A DNA stretch of 35,100 bases, taken from the NCBI GenBank assembly GCA_020054815.1, contig JAIHAN010000011.1:1-35100 (forward strand), in the 5' to 3' direction. The notes below the pieces were generated by a model, which worked only from the letters and a program-made list of their open reading frames with translations, was not told the origin of the DNA and made no database searches. The stretch is from Peptococcaceae bacterium. GTDB taxonomy: Bacteria; Bacillota; Peptococcia; DRI-13. The translations under genes were made by a program, and so were the position numbers. This document shows, piece after piece, positions 12,975 through 14,366 of this stretch (position 1 is the first letter of the stretch; every line of letters begins with the position of its first letter).

Positions 12975-13376
12975 ATGAGTAATAAATTCTGGTGGTCGTA
13001 TTTCCTGGAAACTTTGGGGGCCGGAATGGTTATTTACGGGTCTGCATCAGCCTGGGGTAAAAAGGGCTTAAACATAATCAACGGTGTAGAAGACTGGTTT
13101 GGTGCCGTTACCTTATTTTTAGGTCTTGTTACTTTATATAATCTTTACCTGGCCAAAGAAAGAGAAAGGCATTCTCTTTTAGCAATCGGTATAATCGTAC
13201 CTCTTACTGCCGCCTTAAGTTTTTTTACTATGCCCGTCCGTTATCATATTGGTGGATTCAATTTGGCTACCAGTATTCAACTGGCTTTTCCAGGCATTTA
13301 TATTGCTTTTGTGGGTGGCCTCATCATACTGGTGGCAGGATTAGGTTTATATCTTAAAAAAGGGCAGTCTAAATAA
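12975..13376 (+). CDS. Hypothetical membrane protein
   Basis: Unrecognised 133-residue protein, second gene of a pair. It has four hydrophobic segments (roughly residues 8-25, 40-58, 68-86 and 103-126). The first contains small residues (GAGMVIYGSASAWG), and there is a charged loop (YLAKERERH) after the second. ATG 12975 is preceded by AAGGGGGGAAAG. Sharing topology and a 12-base gap with the preceding gene suggests the products act together, perhaps as a membrane complex, but this is inference. A long palindrome and a hairpin terminator follow. Confidence 0.75.
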   Translation: MSNKFWWSYFLETLGAGMVIYGSASAWGKKGLNIINGVEDWFGAVTLFLGLVTLYNLYLAKERERHSLLAIGIIVPLTAALSFFTMPVRYHIGGFNLATSIQLAFPGIYIAFVGGLIILVAGLGLYLKKGQSK

Positions 13377-13390
13377 ATTTTGTACGGGGG

Positions 13391-13435
13391 AATGTAAATT
13401 AGTTGAGGTGCCAGGCACCTTAACTAATTTACATA
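13391..13435. repeat. Long near-perfect palindrome (REP-like), GGTGCC-A-GGCACC core
   Basis: Bases 13392-13412 and 13414-13434 are 21-base arms that pair at 20 of 21 positions, the exception being a G/T (13405-13421), around a single central A. The core GGTGCC-A-GGCACC with AT-rich outer arms resembles short palindromic repeats that are scattered between genes in Bacillota and mobilised by REP-associated tyrosine transposases. No T-run follows directly, so it is not a plain terminator. No transposase is in the window. Confidence 0.7.
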
Positions 13436-13450
13436 AATTTAACATAAAAT

Positions 13451-13479
13451 AAGAGGAGCGTCGCTCCTCTTGCTTTTTT
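13451..13479 (+). terminator. Terminator after the membrane-protein pair
   Basis: A 9-bp perfect stem AAGAGGAGC/GCTCCTCTT (13451-13459 with 13463-13471) and a 3-base loop are followed by GCTTTTTT. An A-rich stretch on the left could let it work for the convergent radical SAM gene too. Confidence 0.85.
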
Positions 13480-13490
13480 GAGGGAAGATA

Positions 13491-14366
13491 CTATAGCATC
13501 CGGTTATAGTCTACAGGCAAGGCCTTGATATTGGCACGGCTCAGATAATATTCCAGCTTTTGCAGGATCAGGTTTCTTTCCTGATTAAGGACTCCGGCCA
13601 GGCTAAAATAATTGGAAACGTGATTAGCCCGGTACACGCAGTTGTCCAGGTCAACATGCTGCATGAATAGATGTAATTCCTTTAGGGTTTCCCAGGGAGT
13701 CAAGAAGGTAAATTTGCCTTCTTTGATTTTGCGTAAAAGGGGAGCCCCTTCCTCCAGCAATAAAGTTAAAGAAGCCAGGTAATGAGGATTAATCTCCGAA
13801 ACCACCCGCGCTGTTTCCAGGGCATGTTCCTCCCACAGTTCCCTGCCCCCGAGCCCGGAGATAATGGTTGCCGAGAGCTTAAGACCGCTCTTTTTAACTT
13901 TTTGGCCGGCCTCAACCATTTCCTGTGGAGAAGCACCTTTATGCACGAGTTTTAAAACCTGTTCACTGCCGCTTTCAATCCCTAAGTAGACAAGGCCTAA
14001 CCCTTCTTGATATAGGGTTTCCAGTTCAGCAGGGGTTTTGCCAAGGATGTCTTTCGGTCCCCCGTAAATACTAACCCGCTTCAGCGAAGGAAACTTTACA
14101 TATAATAGCTTAAGGGTCTTGACAAGGGTTTCCGTAGGCAGGGCCAGGGCATTGCCATCGGCCAAAAAGATTCTTTTAGTATGGGGGTATTCTTGAGAAA
14201 CAGTGTTAATCAGTTCACTGATTTCCGGCCAGTCTTTCTGCCGGAATCTTTTTTGTTTGTACATGGTACAAAAAGTACAAGCGTTATGGGAACAGCCAAT
14301 AGTGACCTGTAAAATTAAACTGTAGGCTTCACTGGGCGGCCGGTACAGCGGGTAATCATAATTCAC
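13491..14366 (-). CDS. Radical SAM protein (COG1032-like)
   Basis: A 291-residue radical S-adenosylmethionine enzyme. The cluster-binding cysteines are Cys25, Cys30 and Cys33 in GCSHNACTFC, a C-x4-C-x2-C spacing rather than the classical C-x3-C-x2-C. This spacing is known from a group of uncharacterised radical SAM proteins with a GCSxNxCxFC motif. Later blocks such as RIFLADGNALALPTETL, RVSIYGGP and LVYLGIESGSEQVL fit the SAM-binding TIM barrel and match Elp3/MiaB-type oxygen-independent coproporphyrinogen oxidase relatives. GTG 14366 has GGGAGG 10 bases upstream. It stands alone on the minus strand. The substrate is unknown. Confidence 0.85.
   Translation of the reverse strand: MNYDYPLYRPPSEAYSLILQVTIGCSHNACTFCTMYKQKRFRQKDWPEISELINTVSQEYPHTKRIFLADGNALALPTETLVKTLKLLYVKFPSLKRVSIYGGPKDILGKTPAELETLYQEGLGLVYLGIESGSEQVLKLVHKGASPQEMVEAGQKVKKSGLKLSATIISGLGGRELWEEHALETARVVSEINPHYLASLTLLLEEGAPLLRKIKEGKFTFLTPWETLKELHLFMQHVDLDNCVYRANHVSNYFSLAGVLNQERNLILQKLEYYLSRANIKALPVDYNRML

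Follow-up and report, generated by a model that had tools for sequence, protein, structure and literature searches.

Palindromes Linked to Y1 Transposases

Elements of the IS200/IS605 group such as IS608 encode a HUH/Tyr transposase of the Y1 family (TnpA), which cuts DNA strand-specifically at sites selected by guide sequences, and carry palindromes at both of their ends. REPs are also short palindromes, often located at gene ends and tied to a Y1 RAYT gene (TnpAREP); their hairpins carry a GTAG or CGTC tag at the foot, and in a REPtron a full-length RAYT gene is flanked by the same palindromes. A third kind of system is the TIRtron, whose transposase (TIRYT) is treated as subclass 2.1 in a survey of RAYT-like genes (Di Nocera et al., 2013, PMC3733652; PMC6006769). 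In the available parts of these two reports, the transposase of TIRtrons is RAYT-like and combines a Y1 domain with a DnaA-like or other helix-turn-helix tail. Its gene stands between terminal inverted repeats that in many cases contain the motif GGGGWSAS, and for some TIRtrons solo copies of the end repeats are known elsewhere in the genome. Some of the repeats are self-complementary, in part or throughout, and in some cases repeat and gene overlap (PMC3733652; PMC6006769, same parts). Subclass 2.1 is the second largest RAYT-like subclass of the survey and, in the portion of that text that is available, its genes have no REP-like sequences beside them (PMC6006769).

Here we describe a palindrome from a Peptococcaceae bacterium that very probably is a solo copy of the hairpin found at the ends of a small element related to IS200/IS605. 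The transposase of this element would be a TIRYT-type RAYT, combining a Y1 domain with a DnaA-like helix-turn-helix tail.

The Palindrome and Its Fold

The window, that is the whole stretch of 35,100 nucleotides that was analyzed, lies on contig C83 of a 2.7 Mb assembly that is 80.75% complete (G000). It was compared with one congener, a sister species whose 3.8 Mb genome is a single contig (G001). The palindrome extends over 43 bases, from 13392 to 13434, and comprises two arms of 21 bp around a one-base loop (A13413), as indicated by its sequence, its fold and related copies. The only pair that departs from Watson-Crick rules is a G·T pair (13405/13421), and the core, GGTGCC-A-GGCACC, occupies 13407–13419. 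A first-pass annotation made from the sequence alone had described the length, the arms with their single irregular pair and the core correctly, and had set the limits slightly too wide (13391–13435).

It is the only palindrome in the window with arms of at least 21 bases, at most one mismatch and a loop of at most three bases. Under the same limits on mismatch and loop, 30 dinucleotide shuffles of the window gave arms of 14 at two places in total and arms of 12 at 14 places (a count that would include the places of any longer arms). As RNA, the palindrome folds with a free energy of -27.5 kcal/mol (z -8.1), a value that none of 200 shuffles equaled. The palindrome is well beyond chance. Its location after a stop codon would suit an ordinary intrinsic terminator or a fortuitous palindrome, but a T-run is absent directly after it, as the first reading had remarked, and a separate terminator-like hairpin (GAGGAGCG..CGCTCCTC) with a T-run of its own follows at 13450–13479 on the forward strand. 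Chance, for its part, is excluded by the shuffles together with the copies found at several unrelated sites, and both of these explanations are hardly credible.

A RAYT Gene Bracketed by the Hairpin in the Sister Species

The absence of a Y1 transposase from the window, already stated in the first-pass annotation, was confirmed; the single PF01797 match of the 80.75% complete G000 assembly is located on contig C62, and this only Y1 gene has a different end type. The annotation had also suggested a search for a Y1 gene with this palindrome on either side. G001 contains such a gene, as one of its five Y1 genes (281 aa, RAYT type) is bracketed by two copies. Both ends of this element are 51-bp direct repeats, 88% identical, that read CAGTATTGTTAAGAnAATGTTAAwTAGTTkA ahead of the core. 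The intact element carries an asymmetric unit, a tandem hexamer box and then the hairpin, at both ends and in the same orientation, and the end of the gene (SIVKRMLNS-stop) is itself the box of the right end, with the stop codon TGA adjoining the core.

The protein contains a Y1_Tnp domain (E 1e-13, above the cut-off) and a C-terminal stretch resembling Bac_DnaA_C (E 5e-5) that scores 23.6 bits, under the Pfam cut-off of 31.5; against REP_Tyr_transpos it reaches 73.9 bits, the cut-off being 80. At E up to 0.01 its sole solved relative is TnpAREP 4er8 (E 0.008); the alignment pairs Y119 of the RAYT with position 115 of the 4er8 chain. Y115 is the catalytic residue of E. coli TnpAREP (PMC8266576, in the available part). 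When the protein was compared with genome_contigs, a collection from which the window's own or very near genomes may be absent, 35 stretches fitted a pattern and no relative was confirmed among them.

Twelve copies of the palindrome from both genomes were aligned. Five of the six pairs of the core stem are invariant in all of them, and the sixth pair is broken in one copy. The two hexamers of the box lie 11 bases apart in 11 of the 12, one of these 11 being the RAYT's own tail, and since this spacing is kept, the solo copies resemble the end of the element; in the twelfth (G000, contig C76) the box is rearranged. In 11 of the 12 copies the box stretch resembles the RAYT tail V-K/N-x-x-L-x-S, with a stop in place of the tail L in the window copy and two copies without the final stop. 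In the window, the inner hexamer reads TGTAAA (13428–13433, reverse strand, inside the arm) where most aligned copies have TGTTAA, and the outer one reads TGTTAA (13439–13444, reverse strand), 11 bases from the inner hexamer. Together they are the counterpart of the last codons of the G001 RAYT.

Other Y1 Genes as Comparison

The scan of Y1 genes covered 45 loci (38 genes after merging seven duplicates), which represent 30 of the 39 places of one Y1 search and all of three others. The core GTGCC-N-GGCAC was found at three of the 38 genes, in G001, G100 and G171. The genomes G100, G171, G008 and G333 had been picked for a match to the core or to the longer pattern; in G008 and G333, the Y1 genes found lack the core. 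In G100, the RAYT has two core hairpins on each side and its ends are 62-bp direct repeats, 89% identical. In G171, a core hairpin lies 27 bp past the stop codon, on the 3′ side only, and the RAYT tail differs. The hairpins of these two further genomes of the phylum (GTGCC-A/T-GGCAC) have only the core in common with the window copy, as their arms and box are different. Additionally, the reading frame of the G100 RAYT (L141, 1167–1961) extends into the right hairpin. At 15 of 30 Y1 loci, including the sole one of G000, GGGGAC or GGGGTCAGG inverted repeats stand on both sides and are similar to those of the known TIR type. Leaving aside the RAYT of G001, the 14 others showed no such inverted pair or no recognized frame.

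Alternatively, the palindrome could be a repeat of another mobile family, such as REPs of the CGTC type or the MITEs of a DDE transposase, and flank the RAYT by coincidence. The available part of PMC3733652 reports CGTC REPs without a dedicated transposase, and only one of the five Y1 genes of G001 has the hairpin, but the core adjoins three RAYT genes in three genomes, on both sides in two of these, and in G001 the tail of the transposase overlaps the hairpin. A coincidence of this kind appears very improbable.

Copies of the Palindrome and Their Distribution

The annotation had called for a count of copies in the genome. The exact core GGTGCC-N-GGCACC occurs at five places in G000 and eight in G001, and a control with the reversed pattern gave none in either genome. 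Judged by arms and box, four of these exact cores in G000 and six in G001, some of them degenerate, are of the window type. Two more copies of this type were found, one on contig C166 of G000 without the loop base and one at the right end of the G001 RAYT with one changed base beside the loop, which brings the totals to five in G000 and seven in G001. The remaining exact cores (a single one in G000, two in G001) carry a different box, AACTTAGT, and were left out of the alignment and of the count of window-type sites. These copies (L004 at G000:C79:1267, L026 at G001:2801814 and L027 at G001:3600230) form a second type in which the same core is combined with the AACTTAGT box; by eye, a terminator-like hairpin stands on the box side in all three, and no transposase was found for them.

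Outside the genus, seven of 44 genomes of the class have one core each, and the reversed pattern was found in one of 46. When 398 sampled genomes of the phylum were screened for GTTGAGGTGCCNGGCACC, allowing one mismatch, seven matched, G000 included, and five contained the reversed control, once each. As the control is almost as frequent, single matches are no evidence. The earlier suggestion of similar palindromes dispersed in Bacillota genomes was not confirmed for the longer form. Several matches were seen only in G000 and in G171, a member of another family of the phylum with 38 matches, 19 on each strand. Most of the G171 copies seen among loci L095–L115 consist of GTTGACAAAGTTGAC and GTGCCWGGCAC, and read on the other strand this repeat places CGTC at the base of the core. 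CGTC REPs show the same feature, and the likeness may be fortuitous. A scan of a wide contig collection with the palindrome pattern returned three stretches from unrelated organisms, the window's own or very near genomes being possibly absent there. The three Rfam matches with E values of 1 or less scored far under their gathering thresholds.

Comparison of Sites Between the Two Species

Five of the six window-type sites, the window's own included, are common to both species, which indicates that most of the spread of the family preceded the separation of the species. The window region is 93% identical to its G001 counterpart over 2500 bases. The two palindromes have 40 of their 43 bases in common, and two of the three differences compensate each other; as this is the same 93% as in the surroundings, there is no extra constraint on the palindrome, and since it is present at the same site in G001, the window copy is an old insertion. 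There is no sign of recent movement. In the first-pass annotation, a single-copy sequence conserved at this site in relatives was to point to a local regulatory role; conservation at the site was indeed found in G001, and the sequence is not single-copy.

A comparison with empty sites, also proposed there, was possible at two places. Where G001 has hairpin, gene and hairpin at the RAYT site, G000 (contig C60) has one hairpin and no gene, between flanks that are 97.3% identical over 1102 bases and 99.2% over 1193. At the first of the positions that distinguish the two G001 ends, the lone G000 hairpin is like the left end; the following three such positions, which finish with the loop, are like the right end. 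The base after the loop agrees again with the left end and the following arm with the right end, save six extra bases in G001. This mosaic fits recombination between direct repeats, which would leave such a hairpin, plus a few private changes; alternatively, the gene may have inserted into a hairpin. At the second place, the copy at G001:792205 sits in 129 bp that are absent from G000; the difference is wider than the unit, and a deletion in G000 would explain it as well. Separately, about 1 kb beside a shared palindrome in G000 (L132, contig C166) is absent in G001 (L052, 84501). This stretch, between the palindrome and the next matching flank, was considered as a transposase insertion and rejected, since its long frame, as read from the translation, apparently encodes a fumarase-type protein.

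The pairing of the hairpin was assessed in the 12-copy alignment against 500 shuffles, which ignore the kinship of the copies. It was found that 86.5% of the cells pair (2/500 shuffles as high), that both sides changed in eight cells (3/500) and that the covariation score is 0.100 (3/500), compared with at most 0.036 for slid partners. Two of the five pairing measures, pairs with a double change and further pair types, were not unusual (72/500 each). We see in these values a hairpin symmetry that appears to be upheld, whether by selection or through hairpin repair from a template, without extra conservation.

Surroundings of the Window Copy and a Possible Role in RNA

Upstream of the palindrome lies an open reading frame of 133 aa without a Pfam match (12975–13376, forward strand), in whose 3′ UTR the palindrome would fall. 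Its stop codon, 15 bases, the palindrome, 15 bases and the terminator-like hairpin (13450–13472, then its T-run) follow one another, and a convergent frame (13491–14366, reverse strand) encodes a radical SAM protein. The very stable RNA hairpin 15 bases past a stop codon that was first predicted is consistent with this arrangement and with the computed fold. In a transcript, the hairpin would sit between the stop codon and an intrinsic terminator, where an effect on the mRNA is possible. At six of nine independent sites (both box types pooled, mechanical open reading frames), or five of nine leaving out the RAYT's own stop, the palindrome either contains a stop codon or has one no more than 15 bp away, which makes a transcript effect conceivable; such effects have been proposed for REPs (PMC3733652, in the part available).

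A terminator-like hairpin similar to that of the window also adjoins the copy at G000:C60:4990. The two regions (window 13383–13471 and L001 1477–1565) are alike over about 88 bases, the GAGGAGCG terminator included, and both also occur in G001. A larger mobile unit of this extent was considered and dropped, as the other copies do not have it.

An element kept by the host in the 3′ UTR (an RNA hairpin or a site bound by a protein, with the function of protecting or terminating the mRNA of the frame at 12975–13376) would agree with the position between stop codon and terminator, the recurrence of nearby stop codons, the conservation of the window copy in G001 and the paired changes of the alignment; the RAYT would then have merely inserted into one such hairpin in G001. 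However, the palindrome is no more alike between the species than its surroundings, box and hairpin stand at both ends of the RAYT with the gene's tail forming part of the box, the same core adjoins RAYTs in G100 and G171, and no Rfam match attains a gathering score. Such a host element is an unlikely explanation, and we retain the solo end hairpin of a RAYT element as the origin of the palindrome.

Proposed Mechanism

The single-stranded end unit of the element would fold and then be bound and cut by the transposase. Solo units might arise from processing by the transposase or, in the manner of solo LTRs, from recombination between the directly repeated ends that deletes the gene. The window copy would have been made before the two species split and would now be passively inherited; as RNA, it would fold into a very stable hairpin located after the stop codon and ahead of the terminator. 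More speculatively, the ends may be bipartite, with the Y1 domain reading the GGTGCC-N-GGCACC hairpin and the DnaA-like tail reading the tandem TGTTAA hexamers, which lie about one helical turn (11 bases) apart. Recombination between the direct repeats would then easily remove the gene, and the solo hairpins left behind, in many cases close to where genes end, would be a bacterial counterpart of solo LTRs. If true, this tentative model would give a purpose to the orphan helix-turn-helix tail of subclass 2.1 transposases.

The copies, the bracketed RAYT of G001 and the comparison of sites support the initial suggestion that the window palindrome is a non-autonomous relative of a RAYT element, of which movement was not seen. 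Against it stand this lack of observed movement and the low copy number, the absence of a RAYT with these ends from the assembled part of G000, the fact that GTTGAGGTGCCNGGCACC is barely commoner by genome than its reversed control (7 vs 5 of 398), and the two neat RAYT cases outside the genus that share the core alone with the window copy. One genus offers the gene, both ends, solo copies and a gene-less site for comparison, which is a direct substrate for tests, and the comparison of G001 with G000 suggests a simple route to palindromes without a transposase.

Comparison With REPtrons, TIRtrons and IS200/IS605

A search of the open-access literature for the core sequence gave no match with GGTGCCAGGCACC, and its 11-base forms led to papers that, by title, concern vertebrate or medical topics and one Pseudomonas gene. 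In that literature no description was found of a variant that combines palindromic direct-repeat ends with a DnaA-like tail, and a subscription paper may have one.

With IS200/IS605 elements such as IS608, the G001 element shares the family of its transposase and the palindromes at both ends, but its two ends are long, near-identical direct repeats. From the REPs it differs in the foot of the hairpin, as no unpaired GTAG or CGTC is present in the 12-copy alignment and a tandem box of TGTTAA hexamers is found instead, and in its few copies. The full-length RAYT flanked by the same palindromes that characterizes a REPtron is present in G001 and absent from the assembled part of G000. Regarding the TIRtrons, the G001 gene has the RAYT-like Y1 domain and a helix-turn-helix tail (its DnaA_C-like stretch scoring below the cut-off), and by this tail it probably belongs to subclass 2.1; no gene is present at the corresponding G000 site. 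In common with some TIRtrons, the end repeat also occurs alone at other places in the genome. Whereas TIRtrons have inverted GGGGWSAS repeats, the RAYT of G001 ends in directly repeated units of box and hairpin, 51 bp long and without the motif, in which the hairpin core alone is its own inverse.

The result is modest but clean, as the kind of element is already known from REPtrons and TIRtrons and the variant lies in ends that are palindromic direct repeats, combined with a transposase that has a DnaA-like tail. The element would work like a REPtron or a TIRtron; it is not a GTAG/CGTC REP, and its direct, palindromic ends set it apart from the TIRtrons as described.
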